In this document: piece by piece, positions 4,354 to 26,263 of the stretch
Layout of the letters: each line of letters opens with the position of its first letter
How positions within the stretch are numbered: the first letter of the stretch is position 1
DNA from: a virus
DNA: 28,283 bases
Direction: 5' to 3' (one strand)
IMG/VR virus record: IMGVR_UViG_3300044922_000460
Location: 1 to 28,283 of that record
Program-made: the position numbers and the translations under genes
The notes under the pieces: generated by a model
What the model saw: the letters and a program-made list of their open reading frames with translations, nothing else
The model's database searches: none
What the model was told of the DNA's origin: nothing

Positions 4354-4936
4354 TTTCTCTCATAAATTTAACTATTACAATTCTGCCGTTTCTTTGATTG
4401 ATGCCTTCAGATAGCCATGGTTGTCGACCGTGATATAGCTTTGCATCATAGATCAACAATGTATTTGCCTTTGAGTTAAAGAATTCATCTATTGACCATT
4501 GTCCATCATCTTCGTCAAATATATAGTGCTCTTTAGCTTTAGCATAATTGCCATACACAGGGTGACTGAAGAAAGCTGTACCTGTTATATCACTACTGTC
4601 TAAGTAAAAGAGAGCGGCTACAGTTGGTGTTTGACCAAATATGTCTTGATCCGCATGTACTCTAAATTCTGTGTCATGTTTGCTAGTATTCAAACGAACA
4701 AATGATATGATATCCTTTAAATTTTTTCCTAGTGTTTCATTAATAATTTTGTTAATATTATCATTAATATCTTTAGGCATGTCAGCATAATAAATAAATG
4801 TGCCATTACCCTTAGGCATTCGTTTATAGTTTGATGCCCTGCAGTATTGTCTTAATCGCAGAAAATCCTGCATTGATAACACATTATCAATACTAGTGAA
4901 TCTCGTACCAATCGTTACCGATCTTTCCACTTCCAT
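4343..4936 (-). CDS. 2-oxoglutarate/Fe(II)-dependent oxygenase
   Basis: This 197-aa protein shows the double-stranded beta-helix iron site: H94-x-D96 (FRVHADQD), the distal H169 (DAKLYHG), and R185 in NGRIVIVKF as a likely 2-oxoglutarate anchor. Between them is the expected hydrophobic strand VAALFYL. The family hydroxylates protein, nucleic acid or small-molecule substrates, and is common in aquatic phages, where the target is usually unknown. I place the start at 4936 because GGAG precedes that ATG by 7 nt. A longer frame from 4975 exists but lacks such a site and only lengthens the overlap with the DNA polymerase. With this start the overlap is 44 nt, so the start is not certain. The substrate is unknown. 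Confidence 0.83.
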   Translation of the reverse strand: MEVERSVTIGTRFTSIDNVLSMQDFLRLRQYCRASNYKRMPKGNGTFIYYADMPKDINDNINKIINETLGKNLKDIISFVRLNTSKHDTEFRVHADQDIFGQTPTVAALFYLDSSDITGTAFFSHPVYGNYAKAKEHYIFDEDDGQWSIDEFFNSKANTLLIYDAKLYHGRQPWLSEGINQRNGRIVIVKFMRENDE

Positions 4937-6761
4937 CCATAATCTCCACACCAAATAGTTTAGGGCCGTCTGCAAACGCTTGTTTACCTATCTCAGCTGC
5001 TTGTTCAGCAAACTCTTCAGGCACCATAAAGTCAATTTCATCATGCATCATAATCAAGGGTTGGTACGGAATTCCTGCAGATTCGAGTCGCTCCATTGTA
5101 AGCATACATGCTGCTCCGCACGTAATTTTCTCTGCTGATTGCAGTAGATAGACAAGAAGCTTATGGAAGCTGTCAACATACACACGAGTACCAGCCAAGC
5201 TAGGGATATAACCATCTCCCTTTTTCTTTGTGTTTCCATATATTTTCTCCAACTTTTCACTTAAGTCTTTAAATCCTGGAACAGCTTTAATAAAGCCTGA
5301 TTTCAATTTCTTACCTTTAACATCATCATGTGAGCCAAAGATATATGACCAAAGCTTTCCACCACTGGCTCCGAATAAGAATGCGTATAGAATTCTCTTA
5401 GCATTCGCTCTTGGTACTACATAATTCATCTTTAAATCTTTCTTTAAGATCTCAGTAAGAATATCAGCATTAAATTGATGAATATCACCATTAAGTAATG
5501 TATCAATAAATGTAGGATTATTCAAATAATGTGCTAAGCCTCTAGCTTGATTACCTGATGAATCACAGCCTACAAGCTTCCAGCCAGGCTTACATGAGAA
5601 CAATTCCCGCATTTCTCTACCCCATGGTGAATCTCCTGACGGTACGTTAACAATAATAGAGTGTCTAGCACGCATACTTGGTGTACCGATTGTCATACAA
5701 TCACCGTGCAGATTGCCTTGATCATCTACGTTCTTTAACCATGTTGTTAAAATGCCTTGCCTAGCCTTTGCAGTTAAGAAATCTTTATAGAGCTTACCAT
5801 CACCCCCTAAGAATTCTAAACTATCTTCTGTAATCTTAGGTGTAGTTTTCGCTTTTCTTCCTGTAATAGGATCAGCTTTATAATTCCAATCATTAGGAAC
5901 CCAACCATGTCTATATAGAAATATCTTTACATCTGTTACCGAGTCCAGACTAAGAGGTTCGACTTGAATACGGCAATACTCACCATCGACAATGCGATCA
6001 TCAGGATCGAACCCACTCCAAGGATCCACATCAAACCACCGAGCAGTATGCGCATCATAACATCCATCCTTTCTATATTTAGGTTTCTTTACTTCTACAA
6101 TACCAAGTTTCTTATCTACAGCGACTATCTTTAAGCCAAGTTTTGAATTTAGTGCAGTATACGTCTTATCCATTTCAACTTGTAATCTGTCATAGAGTAT
6201 ATGTGCTTTATCTAAATCAAATGGCCATCCACCTAAGTTAGCTTCGGCACACCACTTACTTACTGCATGTTCTACTTTAATATACTCTTTGACTTTAGGA
6301 TTCTTTTCAGACACTTCAATCAATTCTTGCTTTAATATCTCTAATACTTTGACATTTAATGAAACGTCGTTATTACAGTATTCACCCATTTGTTCAGAAT
6401 ATCCAGACCAGTCTTCAAACTCTTGTTTAGGAAACTCTAAATATTCACCCCAACGTTTTAAACCATGCCCATCATTACCAAACCTTCTATAATCTAATAC
6501 TTGTGAAAGAATAAGTGTATCTACAGCTTTTACGCTCTTAGGTAATTCATAGTTGAATAGCTTCTTTAATACAGCTAAGTCATATCCAATAATATTATGG
6601 CCCATAACTTGTCTAGCATTATTGAATAGTTGTATCCAATTCATATCTCCTTGCAAAAATTGCATTCGCTTATTAGCACTTACATCATGAACAACCATGA
6701 TCCACATTTGTGTTACGTCTTTTAACAAACCATCTGTTTCAATATCGAATACATAATTCAT
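4893..6761 (-). CDS. T7-like family A DNA polymerase with 3'-5' exonuclease
   Basis: This 622-aa replicative polymerase starts MNYVFDIETDG, which carries Exo I (D6, E8). Exo II follows (GHNIIGYD, D61), then Exo III (Y128-x-x-x-D132, YCNND). Polymerase motif A is GCDSSGNQARGLA at roughly 397, motif B is RANAKRILYAFLFG, and motif C is MMHDEID with the catalytic aspartate at roughly 571. T7 gp5 is 704 aa, so this enzyme is shorter. I choose the ATG at 6761 over a GTG at 6785 because the GTG lies inside the terminator hairpin, and because Exo I is normally within ten residues of the N-terminus. A weak GGAAA precedes the ATG. Proofreading residues are all present. Confidence 0.96.
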   Translation of the reverse strand: MNYVFDIETDGLLKDVTQMWIMVVHDVSANKRMQFLQGDMNWIQLFNNARQVMGHNIIGYDLAVLKKLFNYELPKSVKAVDTLILSQVLDYRRFGNDGHGLKRWGEYLEFPKQEFEDWSGYSEQMGEYCNNDVSLNVKVLEILKQELIEVSEKNPKVKEYIKVEHAVSKWCAEANLGGWPFDLDKAHILYDRLQVEMDKTYTALNSKLGLKIVAVDKKLGIVEVKKPKYRKDGCYDAHTARWFDVDPWSGFDPDDRIVDGEYCRIQVEPLSLDSVTDVKIFLYRHGWVPNDWNYKADPITGRKAKTTPKITEDSLEFLGGDGKLYKDFLTAKARQGILTTWLKNVDDQGNLHGDCMTIGTPSMRARHSIIVNVPSGDSPWGREMRELFSCKPGWKLVGCDSSGNQARGLAHYLNNPTFIDTLLNGDIHQFNADILTEILKKDLKMNYVVPRANAKRILYAFLFGASGGKLWSYIFGSHDDVKGKKLKSGFIKAVPGFKDLSEKLEKIYGNTKKKGDGYIPSLAGTRVYVDSFHKLLVYLLQSAEKITCGAACMLTMERLESAGIPYQPLIMMHDEIDFMVPEEFAEQAAEIGKQAFADGPKLFGVEIMDGSGKIGNDWYEIH

Positions 6762-13998: not shown

Positions 13999-14298
13999 TT
14001 AAAGTGTACTTACTAATTGGTCAAGCTCTGAAACTTCTTTTTTCAAAGCTTTATTTTCAGCTTGAAGTTTATCAACTTCTTTTTGCATTCTGTGAGCCTC
14101 TTTAAACTCATCATACCACGAAGCTGCATAGGATTCTTTGTCAGCTTTTAACTGAGCAATCCCTTCATTTAGCTCGCGACGTTCTTTAATACCTTTGTAG
14201 GCATAAAGTCCAACTGAAGCTACAGTGATTGCCGCTAAAGCCACTGGATTTGTTGCTGCAGCTACTCTTGCTGCGTTCATTGCGATTAATGCTAACAT
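13999..14298 (-). CDS. Membrane-anchored coiled-coil protein
   Basis: A 99-aa protein with an N-terminal alanine-rich hydrophobic region (MLALIAMNAARVAAATNPVA then LAAITVASVGLYAY, to residue about 34). A long charged helix with heptads follows (MQKEVDKLQAENKALKKEV). CCAAGAGGAAA precedes the ATG by 5 nt. Its 5' untranslated region contains the hammerhead ribozyme, so its message would begin with the ribozyme core after cleavage. The anchor plus coiled coil suggests a membrane scaffold or a spanin-like shape; the function is unknown. Confidence 0.7.
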   Translation of the reverse strand: MLALIAMNAARVAAATNPVALAAITVASVGLYAYKGIKERRELNEGIAQLKADKESYAASWYDEFKEAHRMQKEVDKLQAENKALKKEVSELDQLVSTL

Positions 14299-14321
14299 GT
14301 TGTTTTCCTCTTGGAATTATT

Positions 14322-14378
14322 AAGCTGTTTCGTTTTTTTTGAACTCATCAGTATGGATAACACATCCATATACAACTT
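14322..14378 (-). ncRNA. Type III hammerhead self-cleaving ribozyme
   Basis: Every element of a type III hammerhead is present in order. Stem III 5' strand AAGTTGT is at 14378-14372 and cleavage nucleotide A at 14371 (triplet GTA). Stem I is TATGGAT-GTGTT-ATCCATA at 14370-14352, a perfect 7-bp stem with a 5-nt loop. The core CTGATGA is at 14351-14345. Stem II is GTT-CAAAAAA-AAC (3 bp) at 14344-14332. The core GAAA is at 14331-14328, and stem III 3' strand CAGCTT follows, at 14327-14322. Stem III has 7 bp including the A15.1-U16.1 pair and one G-U. Cleavage is predicted between 14371 and 14370. It separates the 49-aa gene message from that of the 99-aa gene. Activity is inferred from structure only. 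Confidence 0.88.
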
Positions 14379-14411
14379 GAGCAGTTTAAAGACTTACTCA
14401 GGTCTGTTTAA

Positions 14412-14561
14412 TCATACTTTTAATAACGCAAGCATTTCTGCTAATTGAGCATCAATGTTAAACTCAGCATCAAGCGCTGCAATTTGTGCTTCGTGCGCAA
14501 TTGCCATAGCTGCTAATTGATTTTCTACTGCTTGTTGTGCTAATTGTACTTGTGTGTTCAT
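14412..14561 (-). CDS. Small helical protein (49 aa)
   Basis: An ATG at 14561, preceded by CCAAGAGGAAAAATAAA, opens MNTQVQLAQQAVENQLAAMA, then IAHEAQIAALDAEF and NIDAQLAEMLALLKV before TGA. It is alanine/glutamine/leucine-rich and should form one long amphipathic helix, possibly oligomeric. It is the first gene after the third promoter-like element, and the hammerhead ribozyme lies 33 nt after its stop. No family is recognised; the strong leader and promoter suggest high expression. Confidence 0.65.
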   Translation of the reverse strand: MNTQVQLAQQAVENQLAAMAIAHEAQIAALDAEFNIDAQLAEMLALLKV

Positions 14562-14634: not shown

Positions 14635-14795
14635 TATTTATAGTCAATTTGTATGATTTTTAGGCCGTTTGCTTTACGCTTTTTAGCCATCTTGTACTCA
14701 CGTGTAATACGAATATCTTCTAAAGTTATCCGATAAAACACCCATGTTAATGCTGCAGCTATCCATAGAGTGACATAAACTAAAAATTCAATCAT
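14634..14795 (-). CDS. Small membrane protein (53 aa)
   Basis: It starts MIEFLVYVTLWIAAALTWVF, one transmembrane segment (about 3-20), then a basic tail (YKMAKKRKANGLKI). The ATG at 14795 overlaps the previous stop as ATGA and has AAGGAG 8 nt upstream; a longer open frame from 14840 starts inside the neighbour and has no site. Type and charge distribution predict N-out, C-in insertion. Function unknown. Confidence 0.65.
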   Translation of the reverse strand: MIEFLVYVTLWIAAALTWVFYRITLEDIRITREYKMAKKRKANGLKIIQIDYK

Positions 14796-15067
14796 GCCAT
14801 TTCTCCTTCCAAAAGAGCGTTTAATCTTGGTACATCCCAATCCCCAAGTCCATATGACTCAGATATTTGATCCCACTGAAGGTTAATTTCAAATACCTCT
14901 TTTGTTTCGAGGATCATCATACCGACCTTATCCTCCCAGATATGCCAAAGACTAATTCCAGCTTTTTCATTGGTGAAGTCAAAAGATGGAACACCGCCCA
15001 TCCCGTTTCTTTCAAATACCCAAAAAGTATTTAATACCTCTAAAACTGATAATTTATCTAATTTCAT
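14792..15067 (-). CDS. Hypothetical protein (91 aa)
   Basis: It starts MKLDKLSVLEVLNTFWVFER and is mixed alpha/beta, tryptophan-rich and acidic (SLWHIWEDKVG, INLQWDQISESYG, DWDVPRLNALLEGEMA). The ATG at 15067 follows CCAAGGGGAACAAAA, a variant of the recurrent early leader, which favours it over an upstream ATG at 15142 lying inside the preceding gene. No family is recognised. The small acidic character fits an early inhibitor-type protein, but this is only suggestive. Confidence 0.65.
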   Translation of the reverse strand: MKLDKLSVLEVLNTFWVFERNGMGGVPSFDFTNEKAGISLWHIWEDKVGMMILETKEVFEINLQWDQISESYGLGDWDVPRLNALLEGEMA

Positions 15068-15083
15068 TTTTGTTCCCCTTGGA

Positions 15084-15338
15084 TTAAAATTTTCTAATAA
15101 TAAATGAATATACGCCTTCATCAGACATACGTAAGCCTTCACCTTTGTGCTCCAACATAATATAATTTACTTCATCAATATTGTTTGAACTTACTACAGC
15201 GTATGGTGTATCATCAACAGGTTGGACTACTGTAACATGAGCATTGTTTCTTTTACCTTCATACACTTGGCCTGTCACTTCTGAATTACTGATTAATGTT
15301 AATTCTACTACGATGTTTGCAATTGTGATTGTTTTCAT
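15084..15338 (-). CDS. Hypothetical protein (84 aa)
   Basis: It starts MKTITIANIVVELTLISNSE and is predicted mostly beta-strand, with a YVVS/VNYIML pattern and a basic end (YSFIIRKF). It is preceded by ATCCAAGAGGAAATTCAA, the recurrent leader, and by promoter-like element copy 2. Its first residues resemble those of the 75-aa membrane protein only through the shared leader and MKT start. No family is recognised. Confidence 0.65.
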   Translation of the reverse strand: MKTITIANIVVELTLISNSEVTGQVYEGKRNNAHVTVVQPVDDTPYAVVSSNNIDEVNYIMLEHKGEGLRMSDEGVYSFIIRKF

Positions 15339-17596: not shown

Positions 17597-18071
17597 TTAA
17601 TTGTCCTTTAAATGTTTCAAAATAATTAATACATTGTTCTTGTGATGTAGCATTAGAAATATCTAAATTTGCAATATTAGATAAGCTTCTTACTTCGTCT
17701 ATCCATATACGCATTGGTTCATAGTCAATAGTGCCTATGAAATTTAATTGGCGATATAAAGGGTATTTAGAAGTAATGAAATCACTTGCCCAATTATTTA
17801 TAAAAGTAGTGTATCTATTTCTTAATAACACTAAGTAGTCATCTGCCGGTTTCCATAATTTATCTACATAATCAAAATAATGAAATATATCAGGTCTAAG
17901 GGGTTTTAATACGGGTGTGCCATTATCAATGTAATAGTTTTCATTATCATATGAACCTTCAATATATTGATATTGTGTCTCAGAAATAATATTATTAAAT
18001 ACTTCTTCCGAGACATTGATATTCTCTACAATTTCTCCAGAGCTTTTGTAAAATGTGTATATAAAATTCAT
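17577..18071 (-). CDS. Tail-fibre assembly-like or tail-associated protein
   Basis: A 164-aa protein starting MNFIYTFYKSSGEIVENINV. The N-terminal half is strand-rich with a Y-x-x-G-x-Y-D pattern (YIEGSYDNENYYIDNGTPVL) followed by LKPLRPDIFHYFDYVDKLWKP. The C-terminal half is a helical bundle (LLRNRYTTFINNWASDF). This two-part plan resembles small proteins encoded next to fibre genes that aid fibre folding. It starts at the hub gene's stop (TAATG). The role is inferred from position and plan, not from a firm family match. Confidence 0.5.
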   Translation of the reverse strand: MNFIYTFYKSSGEIVENINVSEEVFNNIISETQYQYIEGSYDNENYYIDNGTPVLKPLRPDIFHYFDYVDKLWKPADDYLVLLRNRYTTFINNWASDFITSKYPLYRQLNFIGTIDYEPMRIWIDEVRSLSNIANLDISNATSQEQCINYFETFKGQLNELSNS

Positions 18072-21000
18072 TATTTCTTACCTGTCATTATTGTAATAGT
18101 GACTTTAGCCATAAGCGATCCCGTATTCCAATAGTTAGTACTACTGCCATTCATAAGAGTTAGTGACATGCCTCCAAAGTCTGTAGCATTTGCGGCAATT
18201 GATTTACTACCCATGAAAGAATATGTAGTAATGTTAGAGCCATCTGTTTGACGTGTATTAACATCAGATGTAAATAGCAAGTTTCCTATATTAATTCTAA
18301 AATATCCGGCAGTAGTATCAGAATGTGTTAGGGCCACTGTTACAAGGACTACGCGTGTAGTGGCCACAGCAACCGATGGGATGGCAAGACTTGAATAATA
18401 TGTTGTAGTAGCTTGAGCAGCGCCTGAATTTGCAGGCATAGTTAGAGTAAGATTCTTTTCATAGCTACTTATTTCGGTAACAGCTAATGCATTGATATAA
18501 GGTGTATCTACATTAGCAATATTAGTTCCCCACGTAGCTCCGACAGTAGCGCCAGCTTGAATACCTGTAAGCTTAGTTCCTTCAGTAGATGTAAAGCCTG
18601 TTGCCACTGCCCATGCACTACCGGTCCACGTTTTCGTTACAGGATATGCAGCATTTGTTGTATCAATCCATATATCGTTAGCCTTTCCTGTTGGAGCAGT
18701 ACTTTGACGATATGTAGTCACTTTATTAGCACCATCTTCAGGCAGACCTGTTACTGCATTCCCTTTTACGTCTGTCCAGGTTACTTTTGAATTAGTAATA
18801 GCATTTGCTGTTGTTGTAGTAAAGTTAGAAGTTTGTATAACGGGACCTGCTATAGTAAACGCAGAGCCATTCCATGAAATACCTGTTGTAGGGCTTCCTA
18901 CTGAAAATATGCCCTGTCCACTAGCATTCAATCCTAGATAAAAACCACTACCACCAAATGTAGTACCTGAAGACTTAATTGCCTTATTATTAGTATTTAA
19001 TACAATATCACCTGTAGCAAATAAATTGCCTGTCTTGGTAGTAAATGCTTCTAGTGTATCGGCTTTGAATACAGTCAGGTATGGAGCACTCCATGTAATC
19101 TTCTGTGTTACATGATTAATAATACCGTCTGTTTGCCATTGTGCAGAATTAGCATTTACAGTTTGTGTAGTAGCATAATAAGTGTTAAGAGGGGAAGTAG
19201 GTAATGAAGTTATACCATCTGTAGTAAAGGAAGTTATTGTAGGCGTATTGCCGATTAATGCAGTGGTAAAAGCACGTGTTGCTGAATTACCTTGAGCACC
19301 GGGAGTGCCAACACCGTCTGCACCTTTTTGAGCTACTATTTTTACATTAGTCCAAGTACCAGCTGTAACTGCCGTAGCTGGCGTAGTTGTGCTAAATGTA
19401 AATTCACAACTCCACGTAGGCGTTGTTGTTGTTGCAGGTTGAGTCTTTAGCCATGTTCCCGGAGGAACTAGCGGATCTGTAGCTCCAAATGTATACGTCC
19501 CACCTGTTGGTGGTGTTGGTGTACTAGGCTGTTGTAAATATACTGTTGCAGTATATACAGATCTGCCTGAAGGCCCTGTACCACCTGGATTACCATCAAT
19601 ACCATTCTTAGTGTACAGTACGGGTGTAGACCACGATACCGACACACCACCATTACTAGACGTAAATGTCTGAGTAGATACATATACACCAGTTGTTGTA
19701 GCAGGAAATGGAGTTGTCTGCCAACCAATAGTAGTAGGCGCTGTTAATACATTACTGCTAAAATTAAAAGAACCACCAGAAGGCGTGCCTGATGGTACAC
19801 CATTATAATACACAGAGGCTAAATAAGTAGTTGCGCCAGTAGCGCCCGCTTTAGATTTAGCTATGCTGTAAATATTAGTATATGATACACCTTTGTATGT
19901 AGTAGTAATAGTAAATGATTCACCATTAGATGACCATGGGCCGTTTGATTGATCTAGTGTTATTGTGCCATACGCATCAATAGCTAATGTAAGACCACTT
20001 TTAAGTGCACCTCCTGCGTACGTAATTACAGCAGGCCCTCCAACTGGATTTGATACAATAGCGCCCGAATCATATACTACAATAGCATTACCACTAGGTA
20101 GAGTTGTTACACTGCCTAAATTAGTAGCCGGTACAACATCAGCATCGGATTTAATATCTACAAGAATAGCACTAGTACCTCTCTTAGACTTAGCATACGT
20201 ATATGTAGTTGAATAATTTATACTGTTGTACCTGGCTGTAAATACAAACGTAGCCAAATCTCCCGTCCAAGCTGGTGTTGCTCCTGACCATGTAATTACA
20301 CCTGTATTTGTATCGATAGTTGCTGTTAGTCCATTTTGAGCGGCTGTTACAGAATAAACAACTCCAGTAGGCTGCGCAGTACCTCCAATATATAATTTCA
20401 GATTATTGGCAGGAGGTAATGTATAATTTTTACCATCACTATCCGCTGGAGTTACATCAGATTCAGAAAGTAAATCAACAAATATAGCAGACGCTCCGTT
20501 TACACCTGATTTAGTTTTAACTATACTATAAAAAGATGTATAAGTTACACTATTGTAGGTAGCTGTAATAGTAAATGTTTCACTGTCACTAGACCATGTT
20601 GTTTGTGTAAGAGCTATATTACCGCTCGAATCAATAGCTAGCGTAAGGCCATTCTTAGCTTCTCCACCTGAAAATGTAATTTTGTTAGTAGGAACTAATA
20701 CACCACCTTCATACAGCATTGCTTGATTTCCAGACGGTAGAGTAAATACAGCTCCCGAACTACTAGCAGAAACCGCATCAGTTTCTGACTTTAAGTCCAT
20801 TACAACACTTGGAGAACCTTTCTTAGATTTTGCATACGTATATGTAGTTGAATAATCTACACTATTATATCTAGCTGTAAATGTAAAAGATTCGGTATCA
20901 GTTGTCCATAAACCGCCTGACCATGTAATTACACCTGTATTTGCATCTATAGTTGCTGTTAATCCATTTTTAGTACCGCCACCTGAATACACTACATTTG

Positions 21001-24000
21001 TTGAGATTATAGCACCGCCTGAATAAAGTTTTAAACTATTACTTGGAGGTAGTACATAATTTTTACCTTCAGTATCTGCAGCTGTTATATCAGACTCAGA
21101 AAGTAAATCTGCAAAAGTAGCATCCACGCCATTTTGTAAACTGATAACAGGTATTGACCAGCCAGTAATTGCTACAGCACTGGTATTCCCTGCAGCAGTG
21201 TTTACCACAGCACGAGATGTATACACAGCGGCAGTACCTGTCGGTATTGAAGCTGACCATGTAGCACCTATTGAAGTAGGCACAGTTGTCAAAGGACTTG
21301 CAGCACCAAATGTATAACTACCACCTGTAGGTGTTGTAGTTGGCACACCACGAGTGTATACTGTAACCTCTGCTACACTTGCTCCTTCAATTCTTGATGG
21401 AGTATCCCATGTGTACGTAGTTGTTCCTGCAGGCTTAATACCCACACTAGACCATAATGCATTTGCACCAGCTGGTACAGACGCTACATCAGAATACCAA
21501 TTAGTTGGCGTACTTGTAGACGCTGTTGGAGCTAACGGTTGTGAAGCACTGCGAATGAATATGACGTCAACAGCATCACCAGCTGAACCAGTATTACCTG
21601 TTCTACTTACAGAATACGTAATTCTCTGCACTATTGGAGTCAGAGCAGTATTGCTTGAATCATATATTGTTACAGTGACATCTGTGTATGCTACATCAGC
21701 CGACATAGCTGTTGGAGCAGGGATGCTTGCATTTGTATTAGCGGCAACTGTAACACCAGTTGTAGCCAATGTTACTTTAAATGTATTTGCGCCACCTGTT
21801 GCGCTATAAGTCAATGCATTAGTACCAATATACGCTTGTACAGAACATCCAGCACTGCTGAAGTTAATTCCGGCATAGCCAGTATTAGGGGCAGGTACTG
21901 TAATATTATCATTAGACAAAACGACTACAGGTGAAGATGAACCATCAACTAATAGTGGGATTGTTATTGTGTCATTTAATGAACTAGCTGCACCATTTAC
22001 CGTTCCTGTAATTATACATTTATACGCATTAGTTGTTACACTAGCATAATCGGTTGTAGGTACAGTATATGAACTACTTGTAGCACCACTAATATTTGTA
22101 CTATTCTTTTGCCATTGATATGTAATAGTTCCAGTTATATTTTGATAACTAGTAGTTAATACGATACCAGTTGCCGGACTAAGAACTCCTGCAGCATTTT
22201 TATTAAACGTAGAAGATGCATTATCAATGCCAAATACAGCAGAGTTTAAACCACTTTCACCTTTAGCACCATCTTTAGCCAATATTACCGGTGTAGACCA
22301 TTCATTTGCAGATATGGTGTCTGTATTGGTTTGACTATTAGCAATAGCTGTTATAATATATAACGGATCTGAACCACTAGGAATAGCTTTCAACCATTCA
22401 TTAGAAAGATTAGCTGTAGTAATAGCATTACTAGTAAAATCATATGTAACATCTCCAGGATTGGTTGTCAATACTGTAGCTGACCTTTGATACGCATATA
22501 CCATTGCACTACGGTAATTAACAGCATTAATTTCATATTTAACTGGAACAGACCATTCTGTAGGTAAAATAGTATCTGTAGGCTCTGAAGATAATGCAGA
22601 CGCCATGCTCATATATAATTGATCAGTACCAGTAGGAGCTGTTAATGCCCAATTATTATTTAACCCTGTCACAGCTTTAGTAGAAAATGTATATGTAACA
22701 TTTACACTAGGTACAGATGGTGGAGTAGCTGAACGTGCATAGATAAAGATAGAACCAGTATTCATTGTTCCAGAAAAACTAACTGATTGTGTTGATACAC
22801 GAGCGCTCTCTGGACCTGCGCCATATTCATCATGCACAGTAACCGTATACCAATAGTCAACACCTTCTGTTGCTTCAATATTAGCATAGTTGTTTAGTGT
22901 CTCTACAATTACAGGCGTTCCGCCAACTGCTTGACTGTATTTTTTAAATACATACTTTGTAATATCACTGTCTGATACCAAGGTTGCCTTAGCCAATGCT
23001 GTTCTGAAGCTAGGTGATACACTGAATTGTGTAACAGATGGTGCAGCATTCTCAACAGTAGCTTCAATATAACCTTGAGTAGTATTCCCTAATGCATCAA
23101 TACTGTAAACCCTTACTTTGAATATTCTGGAAGCTGTTACAAACAGTTCCTTATTCATATCATGTGTAAATTTAAATGAAGATGTAGTTACTATATAAGA
23201 CTTTTTAAATACATTACTTGTATCTAAAATTTGAACCAAGTATTGACTAGGTTGAATAGGCTCTTCAGCATTATTGCTCCACACAATTTCAGCATCTCTA
23301 GTATTGAAAGTTGTATCAGTTCTTCCTAAAATATTTATAAAGCTAGGTGGGTAAACAAGAATATCCCGTCTCTTTACGATTGAACCAAATACATAAGTGC
23401 CTAATAAATATTTATTTCTAAAACTATTAATATCATATGAAAATCTTAATGTTGTGTCAAAATAAATATACAGTGTATCAGTAGAGTTTGCATTAGTTGT
23501 ATAGGAACCGCTACTGATGTCAATAACTTTTGTACCATTTTTATAGAAGCTAAAAGCGGTCCAAGATAATTGATTAGCAACATTAGAGAATACTAGTCCA
23601 GAAAAACCATATGTGTCTGTATCAAACACTTCGGCTTCTGTTGTGCTAGTGTATCCGTAAATAGAAAAACCAGTTCTAGTCTGAGTTCTTACAGCAAAAA
23701 TAGCACTGCTAACATTTAACTTAGGCAGTCGAAACTCATTTACAGTTGATCTTCCAATTTCATGGAATTCTGGAGTAGCTGTACCAACTACTGAACCTCC
23801 TTCATACATATAAATAATATAACTAAGGAAATCAGGCTCATTAGCGCCCGACCATCTTAAAGTGCCTGATGTATTTTGACCGTAAGCATCTCTAAATAAA
23901 GCTATATCGCTGGGAGCTGCTATGGCTTTTAAATAGTTATTTGTGGGTCTGATGTATTCACCATCTGCAACAGTCCACGCTAATTGCGTCCAATGGAATT

Positions 24001-26263
24001 TTTGAGCTACCACTTCACATGTATTACTCTCTGATATCTTTACAGAGTTAATTCTAAAGTAAGTGTGACGATCACCAATAGGGACATTACTGGCTAATGA
24101 ACGAATATTTAAAGTCTCACTATCTATTATGATATAATCGCCAGGCTCTAAATATTTATTTCTAATGATATACTTGAATTTAATTGTGTAAGCTGTTCTA
24201 CTAGTTTTAACCAATTCTTCTGCTTTAGATAAGGCATGATAATAATCTACAATTCCAGCAAAAGATGTCTCTAGCTCTAACTCAAGACCATTATCTTCTT
24301 GCTTCATTTGTTGATATATTTCATCTGTATAATCAAGTCTTTGTACGCCTTGATACGCTATCTCGCGTGTAGACCAAAGTACTCGTGTATCATTATAAAT
24401 TACAGCAGCTACGCCTTTTTCCTTACCAACACTGGCGCCATCTATCTCAATCCGGTAATATCTGCCATTGTCAACACGCTCTAAATTTGGTTGGGACAAA
24501 TGCCAAGAGGGTAAGAATAAGTTAGTTATTTTTCCTACTCCATTATCCCATGTTGCAACCTTAGGGAATCCTGGCAACATCTCTTTAAATCCAGTTTCTT
24601 CATTAACAGCATAAATTCTCACTTCAATAGAATTATCACCATAGCAGTCTAATTTCCAATAATCGCCATCATTATGAGGATTAACAATTAGGTGGTATAC
24701 AAGACCGTAATCATTTGCCTGATTAATCTGGTTAGTAGTACTATTCCATACACTGTATTTATTTAGAAGTCTACGGCCAGCGCCTTCATCTTTCCATGTG
24801 AAATCTGCAAGAGGATATTTAATTCCACCAAAACCCCGCAGTGTGCTGTCAGTTGTCTTATGTGGCCAATTTACAGCATCTTGTTTGAAATCATTAGATT
24901 CATTATGAAATTTAATTGTACAGCAATTATATCTGTCACTTGCAGATGGATATGTTATTTCGACATCTTGATCTAATACAAGGTCTTCATCTGTTAAAGT
25001 GGCCGCAACGGTTAAATTAGCATTAGCGTTATTTGTGTATTGCAATAATAGTCTGTATTGACCGCGTGACCAAACTAATCGTGCATCAGACATTGTCGCT
25101 AATATCTCTTCAACATTAGTACGAAGCGCTTTGTCAGTATCAATTAAGATATTGCATTCATATAAGCGTACATTGCGTTTTCCGTTACCATCTTCTCCAT
25201 TACGTGAGCCGGGTTCTGAGGGATTCCAAATACGACCACCTGCGATTGCATTCTCAAATACAACAGTATCACACACTTGAGCGGCTTGATAAAAAGAATT
25301 TAAATCAATTTCATCTACAGGTACACTTCCACCAAAAGTTTCATCCATTAAATAGTCTAATAAACAATATGCTGGATTATTTGTGTAAACTCTTTCTGTT
25401 AATAACTGACCACCGCTACTGATTTTACGTACTTTTCTACCTTCTACTAAAAATTGCAGATTAGGTGTTTGAGTAAATTGTGGGTCATCTTTATCAAGTC
25501 TAATTACGCAAGCTGCATATGTCATTCCTGTAAATGTCGCTGTTCTTCTATCAGCAAAATTAGCTGTAAATATAGAGTTAGCGACACCATAGCCAGTAGG
25601 TATTGGGTCAAGATCGGGATCAGCTGGATCCACTGCCTCAGCTGTAGCATAATGTAGATCTATTCTAAAGGCGGCTCGCGGTTTTGTTACATCTATCCAT
25701 TTATACGCTTCAGGTGAATCTTCATTGTCATAGCTAGCATTATATTGCGGTTTCCCATACGTGCCTAAACTCGGATCTGTTAAATATTTAGATTCATCTA
25801 CGATTACATCATAAATTGCATTAATTTCACCTACACAAATAGCCTGTTCAAAAAATAGAAATTCATTTCTCTTACCCTGGAGAGTTTCATCCAATTGAGT
25901 ATTAATTGTTGATTGCCAATTTTTAAGTACAGTAACGTTTGTACCTGCAGTTGGGCTATATTCTTTCTCTGTTATACTGCCCGAATAATTACCCTCTACT
26001 CCTGATACAAATGATTTATTAGCATTAGATGTTACATATTCAAATACAGCAGATGTAGCGTGATAAGTTCTGACTCCACCTACTTTTGCCCTGCCGTATA
26101 CTACCGCTAAATTATCTGGTTTGCCCTCTACAACCATTTCGTAACCCTTACGAGCTTCTACTCCGGACATATCTGGGCCTTTTGGCTTCTTAACCATAAT
26201 CATCTGAACTACAGATAAGATCAAGGAAATACCTGCCAAAACTAAGCTTGTAATCGCTGCCAT
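18071..26263 (-). CDS. Giant tail hub / host-specificity protein (J-like) with repeat domains
   Basis: A 2730-aa protein. It opens with a hydrophobic helix (residues about 4-24) and NLAVVYGRAKVGGVRTYH, as in J-like and GTA-type tail-tip hubs. About 1-760 should form the hub; an FN3-like domain follows at about 779-880 (DIALFRDAYGQN, RWSGANEPDFLSY). From about 1170 on come repeated Ig-like and short beta modules joined by G-x-y linkers (KGESG, GPSGRS). A fibre-like C-terminus contains GIFSVGSPTTGISWNG and ends VTITIMTGKK. It should contact the host surface and close the tail tip. It starts at the previous stop as TAATG. It is unusually long (lambda J is 1132 aa), and no separate NlpC/P60 peptidase gene precedes it. 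Confidence 0.9.
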   Translation of the reverse strand: MAAITSLVLAGISLILSVVQMIMVKKPKGPDMSGVEARKGYEMVVEGKPDNLAVVYGRAKVGGVRTYHATSAVFEYVTSNANKSFVSGVEGNYSGSITEKEYSPTAGTNVTVLKNWQSTINTQLDETLQGKRNEFLFFEQAICVGEINAIYDVIVDESKYLTDPSLGTYGKPQYNASYDNEDSPEAYKWIDVTKPRAAFRIDLHYATAEAVDPADPDLDPIPTGYGVANSIFTANFADRRTATFTGMTYAACVIRLDKDDPQFTQTPNLQFLVEGRKVRKISSGGQLLTERVYTNNPAYCLLDYLMDETFGGSVPVDEIDLNSFYQAAQVCDTVVFENAIAGGRIWNPSEPGSRNGEDGNGKRNVRLYECNILIDTDKALRTNVEEILATMSDARLVWSRGQYRLLLQYTNNANANLTVAATLTDEDLVLDQDVEITYPSASDRYNCCTIKFHNESNDFKQDAVNWPHKTTDSTLRGFGGIKYPLADFTWKDEGAGRRLLNKYSVWNSTTNQINQANDYGLVYHLIVNPHNDGDYWKLDCYGDNSIEVRIYAVNEETGFKEMLPGFPKVATWDNGVGKITNLFLPSWHLSQPNLERVDNGRYYRIEIDGASVGKEKGVAAVIYNDTRVLWSTREIAYQGVQRLDYTDEIYQQMKQEDNGLELELETSFAGIVDYYHALSKAEELVKTSRTAYTIKFKYIIRNKYLEPGDYIIIDSETLNIRSLASNVPIGDRHTYFRINSVKISESNTCEVVAQKFHWTQLAWTVADGEYIRPTNNYLKAIAAPSDIALFRDAYGQNTSGTLRWSGANEPDFLSYIIYMYEGGSVVGTATPEFHEIGRSTVNEFRLPKLNVSSAIFAVRTQTRTGFSIYGYTSTTEAEVFDTDTYGFSGLVFSNVANQLSWTAFSFYKNGTKVIDISSGSYTTNANSTDTLYIYFDTTLRFSYDINSFRNKYLLGTYVFGSIVKRRDILVYPPSFINILGRTDTTFNTRDAEIVWSNNAEEPIQPSQYLVQILDTSNVFKKSYIVTTSSFKFTHDMNKELFVTASRIFKVRVYSIDALGNTTQGYIEATVENAAPSVTQFSVSPSFRTALAKATLVSDSDITKYVFKKYSQAVGGTPVIVETLNNYANIEATEGVDYWYTVTVHDEYGAGPESARVSTQSVSFSGTMNTGSIFIYARSATPPSVPSVNVTYTFSTKAVTGLNNNWALTAPTGTDQLYMSMASALSSEPTDTILPTEWSVPVKYEINAVNYRSAMVYAYQRSATVLTTNPGDVTYDFTSNAITTANLSNEWLKAIPSGSDPLYIITAIANSQTNTDTISANEWSTPVILAKDGAKGESGLNSAVFGIDNASSTFNKNAAGVLSPATGIVLTTSYQNITGTITYQWQKNSTNISGATSSSYTVPTTDYASVTTNAYKCIITGTVNGAASSLNDTITIPLLVDGSSSPVVVLSNDNITVPAPNTGYAGINFSSAGCSVQAYIGTNALTYSATGGANTFKVTLATTGVTVAANTNASIPAPTAMSADVAYTDVTVTIYDSSNTALTPIVQRITYSVSRTGNTGSAGDAVDVIFIRSASQPLAPTASTSTPTNWYSDVASVPAGANALWSSVGIKPAGTTTYTWDTPSRIEGASVAEVTVYTRGVPTTTPTGGSYTFGAASPLTTVPTSIGATWSASIPTGTAAVYTSRAVVNTAAGNTSAVAITGWSIPVISLQNGVDATFADLLSESDITAADTEGKNYVLPPSNSLKLYSGGAIISTNVVYSGGGTKNGLTATIDANTGVITWSGGLWTTDTESFTFTARYNSVDYSTTYTYAKSKKGSPSVVMDLKSETDAVSASSSGAVFTLPSGNQAMLYEGGVLVPTNKITFSGGEAKNGLTLAIDSSGNIALTQTTWSSDSETFTITATYNSVTYTSFYSIVKTKSGVNGASAIFVDLLSESDVTPADSDGKNYTLPPANNLKLYIGGTAQPTGVVYSVTAAQNGLTATIDTNTGVITWSGATPAWTGDLATFVFTARYNSINYSTTYTYAKSKRGTSAILVDIKSDADVVPATNLGSVTTLPSGNAIVVYDSGAIVSNPVGGPAVITYAGGALKSGLTLAIDAYGTITLDQSNGPWSSNGESFTITTTYKGVSYTNIYSIAKSKAGATGATTYLASVYYNGVPSGTPSGGSFNFSSNVLTAPTTIGWQTTPFPATTTGVYVSTQTFTSSNGGVSVSWSTPVLYTKNGIDGNPGGTGPSGRSVYTATVYLQQPSTPTPPTGGTYTFGATDPLVPPGTWLKTQPATTTTPTWSCEFTFSTTTPATAVTAGTWTNVKIVAQKGADGVGTPGAQGNSATRAFTTALIGNTPTITSFTTDGITSLPTSPLNTYYATTQTVNANSAQWQTDGIINHVTQKITWSAPYLTVFKADTLEAFTTKTGNLFATGDIVLNTNNKAIKSSGTTFGGSGFYLGLNASGQGIFSVGSPTTGISWNGSAFTIAGPVIQTSNFTTTTANAITNSKVTWTDVKGNAVTGLPEDGANKVTTYRQSTAPTGKANDIWIDTTNAAYPVTKTWTGSAWAVATGFTSTEGTKLTGIQAGATVGATWGTNIANVDTPYINALAVTEISSYEKNLTLTMPANSGAAQATTTYYSSLAIPSVAVATTRVVLVTVALTHSDTTAGYFRINIGNLLFTSDVNTRQTDGSNITTYSFMGSKSIAANATDFGGMSLTLMNGSSTNYWNTGSLMAKVTITIMTGKK
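19960..21130 (-). repeat. Tandem A-B-A-B Ig-like repeats within the hub gene
   Basis: Four modules of about 105 residues start near codons 1713, 1817, 1923 and 2029. Types A (DLLSESD...GKNY.LPP...LKLY) and B (D.KS..D...TLPSGN) alternate. The A-B unit recurs at DNA level with a period of about 636 nt: 25 identical nt at 20193-20217 and 20832-20856, and 28 identical nt at 20283-20310 and 20916-20943. This indicates a recent duplication of a two-module unit. Confidence 0.85.

Follow-up and report, generated by a model that had tools for sequence, protein, structure and literature searches.

The window analyzed here, that is, the whole 28,283-bp stretch, is a linear fragment of the genome of an uncultured tailed phage. 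On the transcribed strand, the tail genes are followed by PhoH and many small genes, and then by the genes for a single-subunit RNA polymerase, DNA polymerase, 5'-3' exonuclease, primase-helicase and ribonucleotide reductase. The tail genes encode a protein with a tape-measure profile match, a distal tail protein and a protein of 2730 aa (18071-26263, minus strand) that matches Phage-tail_3 only weakly and has no PHROG family. The closest named homolog of the RNA polymerase is that of the Naomviridae phage DSS3_VP1 (35% identity), in which the gene order is similar. A sequence-only reading of this DNA had placed a hammerhead ribozyme between a 49-aa gene and a membrane/coiled-coil gene, and this location was borne out: the ribozyme lies between a real 49-aa gene, with homologs in relatives, and a 99-aa gene, about 1.3 kb ahead of the RNA polymerase gene. 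The description of the flanking genes as early is plausible from their position, past the tail genes and ahead of the phage RNA polymerase. The features of this junction are listed here in the order of the window coordinates, with the elements of the hammerhead grouped after the ribozyme itself.

13999-14298, minus strand: downstream gene, 99 aa, hydrophobic N-terminus followed by a coiled coil, phrog_6664
14304-14312, minus strand: purine-rich ribosome-binding-like sequence AAGAGGAAA, conserved together with the module in the alignment
14322-14378, minus strand: complete type III hammerhead ribozyme, from sequence, RF00008 alignment and descriptor, with covariation in relatives
14378-14372 with 14328-14322, minus strand: stem III, 7 bp, one G-U, U16.1-A15.1 pair included
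14373-14371, minus strand: GUA cleavage triplet, an NUH triplet 5' of stem I
14370-14371, minus strand: self-cleavage site predicted from the hammerhead architecture, between GUA and U, that is, between 14371 and 14370
14352-14370, minus strand: stem I, 7 perfect bp (14370-14364 with 14358-14352), loop GUGUU
14345-14351, minus strand: conserved core CUGAUGA (consensus CUGANGA), invariant in 9 of 9 aligned modules
14332-14344, minus strand: stem II GUU/AAC, 3 bp (14344-14342 with 14334-14332), A-rich 7-nt loop CAAAAAA
14328-14331, minus strand: conserved core GAAA, invariant in 9 of 9 aligned modules
14379-14405, minus strand: H-type pseudoknot directly 5' of the ribozyme, sequence AGACCUGAGUAAGUCUUUAAACUGCUC, from its low chance occurrence and covariation
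14412-14561, minus strand: upstream gene, 49 aa, homologs in L002, L018, L019, L151, L310 and L311

The hammerhead and the upstream pseudoknot

The minus-strand letters of 14378-14322 read AAGUUGUA ahead of the predicted cut and UAUGGAUGUGUUAUCCAUACUGAUGAGUUCAAAAAAAACGAAACAGCUU past it. The stems follow the type III order, with stems I and II closed by loops and stem III open (7, 3 and 7 bp, respectively). The coordinates, both cores, the triplet, the stem lengths and the predicted cut had been given correctly, to the base, in the sequence-only reading. Scoring of the minus strand with the Rfam covariance model, which that reading had suggested as a check, produced a full-length alignment (54 of the 54 positions of RF00008, Hammerhead_3, aligned to 14378-14322; 31.1 bits, E-value 2.5e-5 in a 141-nt stretch) but fell short of the gathering score of 48.5 bits, which is a curated detection threshold and not a structural feature. 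Because of this shortfall, the default Rfam scan of the whole window returned no matches, and the RF00008 match appeared at a relaxed threshold only. The related phage copies described below score 27-45 bits with the same model; the default Rfam threshold overlooks hammerheads of this kind. The likeness to RF00008 extends to the core, the stem order, the triplet and the open stem III, whereas the differences consist of the 3-bp stem II, the low score and a stem I hairpin with a GUGU(U) loop that is common to other phage copies, namely, those of the window group and the Flavobacterium-type copies, most of the latter having been found through that very loop.

A descriptor search retrieved a single site in the window, exactly at 14378-14322, compared to none in 400 Markov-shuffled windows (both strands), in agreement with the earlier judgment that chance co-occurrence of all these elements is very small. 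In a partition function calculation (secondary structure, 133-nt context), in which the pseudoknot and the tertiary fold of the hammerhead are not represented, stem III has a probability of ~0.12, and competing pairings are favored. By sequence, order of elements, Rfam alignment and covariation in relatives, 14378-14322 is a hammerhead, for which cleavage is predicted.

The follow-up went beyond the earlier reading in bringing out the pseudoknot 5' of the ribozyme, the differing downstream genes in relatives and the hairpin predicted at the 5' terminus of the downstream mRNA. The pseudoknot consists of a 4-bp stem (14405-14402 with 14393-14390) and a loop, GAGUA (14399-14395), that can pair with UGCUC (14383-14379) adjoining stem III; its chance occurrence is 0.015 per window. 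Elements of this type, ~27 nt long and conforming to the pattern NGAC CU[GAGYA]W GUCN UUAAAC [UGCUC], are conserved over very diverse phages (L161-L168; L170-L287) and were detected in at least 119 IMG/VR stretches. Among the matches listed, which comprise 83 distinct copies, the outermost stem pair, which the search pattern left free, conforms to standard pairing in 67, in the forms A-T, G-C, C-G, T-A and T-G; 64 of the 83 lie no more than 70 nt past the stop codon of an ORF and 73 no more than 150 nt ahead of an ORF start. The pseudoknot is often found directly past a stop codon, ahead of scaffold or capsid genes, or just 5' of tRNAs.

The pseudoknot is also present in Lactobacillus, Staphylococcus, Arthrobacter and crAss-like phages as well as cyanophages, and on this account we dropped the notion of a ribozyme-specific hairpin or a simple terminator. 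The notion that it is a part of the hammerhead was dropped, too, given that most of the listed copies have no downstream hammerhead and that the Flavobacterium-type hammerheads differ at this place. One pseudoknot leader in L003 comes without a ribozyme, and the hammerheads of L306 and of the elemo phages come without a pseudoknot; because each occurs without the other, the two are separate elements. The pseudoknot resembles the GP20-b motif (RF03003) in that a short stem, a linker of U-A-A-A and a pairing between the loop and downstream letters follow in the same order, but it differs in the paired letters and, in the window, lacks the downstream GGUG hairpin. The GP20-b model weakly matches Lactobacillus phage copies located upstream of scaffold/GP20-type genes (20.5 bits, E-value 0.013, and 24 bits, E-value 0.15, with a gathering score of 36.2); its scan of the window produced no match and thus nothing at the gathering score. 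Our search of the open-access literature found no paper on GP20-a or GP20-b.

Distribution, covariation and placement of the module

The pseudoknot (14405-14379) and the hammerhead are, respectively, the 5' and 3' halves of a ~90-nt module that is conserved between relatives, with both flanks unrelated. A direct DNA query with the 1.5-kb region produced no matches among named phages, no relatives were found with the 99-aa gene as the query, and no module was detected within the 18 kb of DSS3_VP1 that were examined; the relatives, 18 IMG/VR loci, were gathered via the RNA polymerase gene. RF00008 missed the L010, L011 and L017 records, and because on its own it was too insensitive to settle absence, we built a covariance model on nine modules, all members of the scanned set, the scores of which are accordingly not independent; the independent support for the module comes from covariation and placement. 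Beyond the window, the full module was found in the L003, L005, L006, L010, L011, L015, L017, L018 (twice), L150 and L151 records, and L310 and L311 carry it as well. Our model did not find it in L002, L007-L009, L014, L016 and L019, records that may be fragments; the absence from the close relatives among these (L002, L007-L009, L014, L019) implies that the module is dispensable.

Across the nine modules, both partners have changed in 12 of the 26 base pairs, and standard pairs make up 88.8% of the pair cells. The covariation score is 0.277, compared to 0.150 (sd 0.020) in shuffles; none of the 500 shuffles reached the observed value, a count that is not to be read as a probability because the nine sequences are related, and in slid-structure controls the score was at most 0.091. 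The stems thus show compensatory evolution, which the sequence-only reading had proposed to look for in relatives; as for the position, which it had also proposed to compare, the module stands ahead of different genes in different relatives and hence is not specific to the gene pair of the window. Stem II occurs as GUU/AAC, GACC/GGUC, GACU/AGUC, GGCA/UGCC, GUCC/GGAC and GGUUC/GAACC, and stem I as UAUGGAU/AUCCAUA and, in L010 and L017, UACAAGU/ACUUGUA. The pseudoknot pairing changes in the same compensatory manner, to AGACA/UGUCU in L018 and AGGUA/UGCCU in L012 and L013, and its stem takes the form AAGC/GCUU. An extra U follows CUGAUGA, ahead of stem II, in L010/L017 and L151/L310/L311; such an insertion is unusual for the core and perhaps affects activity. 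Because of these U insertions (L010/L017, L151) and the weak stem III of L150, not every member of the group need be active.

In relatives, the module is invariably found in the space that separates the stop codon of one gene from the start codon of the following gene, and the geometry of the pseudoknot modules is nearly constant, with the upstream stop codon 57-65 nt ahead of CUGAUGA and the start codon 21-29 nt past GAAAC. The genes that follow the module belong to at least five classes without homology to one another.

Class 1: the 99-aa gene of the window
Class 2: a 56-58-aa gene (L003, L151, L310, L311)
Class 3: an 89-94-aa gene (L005, L010, L017, L150)
Class 4: a hydrophobic 90-95-aa gene (L015, L018)
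Class 5: a 115-aa gene (L018)

Because these genes are non-homologous, the module is tied to the junction and not to any single gene. The window homolog of the 89-94-aa gene (14792-15142) is located upstream of the window module, that is, on its other side, and L018 contains two modules ~450 nt apart, ahead of consecutive genes.

Hammerheads and arrays in other phages

When the stem I hairpin and the core were used as a DNA string, matches were obtained in other phage contigs, in which the letters of stems III and II differ. The isolated Flavobacterium elemo phages (68 records) have a related copy, with the core CUGAAGA, ~20 nt ahead of the gene that opens a long leftward operon. In several other contigs, type I hammerheads of the form GGUUAA-CUGANGA ... 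GUC-UUAACC come next; a search for this form had matches in 116 stretches of viral sequence and, within the bacterial genome set, in a single contig (from a Bacteroidetes assembly). A descriptor scan of these loci identified 221 hammerheads in 110 loci, compared to 1 in twice as much shuffled sequence, a count biased by the choice of the loci mostly by the type I pattern; in distinct arrays, 74 of the 179 hammerheads had not been selected by that pattern. An ORF starts within 90 nt of the hammerhead in 212 of the 221 cases, at 10-29 nt in 202 of these. Mixed arrays begin with the type III hammerhead in 13 cases out of 14. L144 has an unbroken run of eight type I hammerheads, with one for each gene. 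In uncultured phages, arrays that comprise five to eight hammerheads are found at L144 5581-10970, L047 1263-2990 and L119 4425-7830; these are mostly type I, one per gene, with stem I GGUUAA/UUAACC in nearly every copy.

Among the 171 distinct type I copies, an upstream ORF ends at -70 to +40 of the core in 161, and the stop is exactly at GGT-TAA-CTGA in 57 (for example, L020 689 and L028 1424); most type I ribozymes thus contain the upstream stop codon, coincide with it or follow it closely. The presence of the upstream UAA within stem I could couple cleavage to translation termination. In the Flavobacterium-type phages L023, L025, L026, L028 and L035, the type III hammerhead is preceded by structured-looking sequences of other kinds, which differ from the window-group pseudoknot; in L023 and L028, this is a hairpin with a GUGA loop.

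Probable processing of phage mRNA and the alternatives

To judge from its sequence and that of its relatives, the hammerhead at this junction is probably a processing site that acts in cis and, by self-cleavage, divides a polycistronic phage mRNA. Given the compensated copies at other junctions in relatives, along with the one-per-gene arrays, long phage messages are probably cut into gene-sized mRNAs. The minus-strand transcript would fold and cut itself between 14371 and 14370. Hammerhead cleavage leaves a 2',3'-cyclic phosphate on the upstream RNA and a 5'-OH on the downstream RNA. The upstream product would therefore end with the pseudoknot and the eight nucleotides AAGUUGUA, capped by the cyclic phosphate, and the downstream product would begin with a 5'-OH on a 5'-terminal stem I hairpin, within a 72-nt leader that contains the remainder of the ribozyme and runs to the start codon of the 99-aa gene. 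The outcome would be separate decay and translation of the neighboring genes; more speculatively, the pseudoknot and the 5'-terminal hairpin might protect the newly formed ends and let the two mRNAs decay independently, in the manner of the RNase III sites in the early mRNA of phage T7. Those sites serve for intergenic cuts in a polycistronic message that leave structured ends. The proposed arrangement would be similar in these respects, but here the RNA would cut itself, without a host enzyme, leaving a 5'-OH and a 2',3'-cyclic phosphate.

The sequence-only reading had anticipated a cut transcript with the ribozyme left in the leader of the downstream gene, a prediction that is supported by the type III architecture and the coordinates, and for the cutting of transcripts, clustered hammerheads of prophages provide an experimental precedent (PMC3088659). 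Its further suggestion of post-transcriptional tuning, that is, regulation, is without direct support, and constitutive processing is simpler. Several points speak against processing, namely, the 3-bp stem II with its A-rich loop, the stem III probability of ~0.12, the Rfam score below the cut-off, the dispensability of the module and, among relatives, the variants with an inserted U or a weak stem III and the L003 leader that has the pseudoknot alone.

Among the alternatives, we consider it unlikely that cleavage is conditional, depending on a ligand, protein, ions or translating ribosomes, with the pseudoknot as a riboswitch-like sensor that competes with stem III. Such regulation would fit the direct abutment of the pseudoknot on stem III, the contest between stem III and other pairings in the partition function, the joint presence of pseudoknot and ribozyme in nearly all window-group hammerheads, and the upstream stop codons in stem I or the core of type I arrays, which could link cleavage to translation. 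However, one would expect a sensor to act on a coherent set of genes, whereas the downstream genes have no visible common function; furthermore, very many phages have the pseudoknot without the ribozyme, and L306 and the elemo phages have the ribozyme without the pseudoknot. Slightly less credible still is a recombination boundary, at which identical short blocks would let early-gene cassettes swap, ribozyme activity being incidental or lost. The conserved block between differing genes and the chimera-like appearance of L150, which seems to combine two module types, are what one would expect, but recombination alone needs no compensation, and yet all three stems and the pseudoknot covary and the catalytic core is invariant in 9 of the 9 modules.

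The 3-bp stem II and the score under the Rfam cut-off could also indicate a decayed or inactive relic, which we regard as highly improbable: every core letter and all three stems are intact, the stems covary across relatives, and hammerheads in which stem II is as short as two pairs are common (PMC3088659). Chance resemblance, to which the match below the Rfam cut-off might likewise point, is refuted for practical purposes by its absence from the 400 shuffled windows, the presence of the module in at least 10 other records and the covariation.

Self-cleaving processing, which we favor over these alternatives, is not a new mechanism because Perreault et al. (2011; PMC3088659) already proposed, for clustered hammerheads in prophages, that they divide long phage transcripts into mRNAs of gene length. 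That study demonstrated cleavage of three tandem prophage arrangements in vitro and of one in vivo; at the time, the natural role of phage hammerheads was described as unclear. Like the prophage clusters of A. tumefaciens, Azorhizobium and C. scindens in that study, the phages analyzed here include hammerheads that flank single genes in the direction of transcription, the window itself containing one copy. In contrast to these clusters, the window group mostly has one type III copy per record (two in L018 and L150), usually coupled to a pseudoknot, in siphophage-like phages with their own RNA polymerase, and in other contigs up to 8 type I copies follow one another. In the open-access literature that we searched, neither the pseudoknot-hammerhead module nor arrays on this scale appear, provisionally, to have been described.

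A broader scenario, conceivable but on the doubtful side, is that unrelated tailed phages share an RNA-only junction system, in which mobile cassettes of the pseudoknot, the hammerhead or both, fitted between stop and start codons, would self-cut long transcripts so that each resulting mRNA carries a single gene and has defined ends that are structured. The type III hammerhead would come first and type I hammerheads (GGUUAA/UUAACC) before each later gene, the upstream stop codon would often be located in the ribozyme and couple cutting to translation, and the pseudoknot alone would be a widespread phage element. The hammerhead family described here offers a clean test case, with one cassette in fixed geometry ahead of various genes, its presence in some close relatives and absence from others, the elemo copies and the one-per-gene arrays; it would demonstrate mRNA maturation in phages that is RNA-catalyzed and independent of host enzymes.

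A separate observation concerns the RNA polymerase gene, into which several relatives have a group I intron inserted, at differing sites, the window copy being uninterrupted. Such introns were detected at L010 4684-4897 and L016 1876-2106 (58.7 and 71.6 bits, respectively), and the L010 intron ORF (4928-5383) encodes a 151-aa protein that, as judged by eye, is HNH-like.
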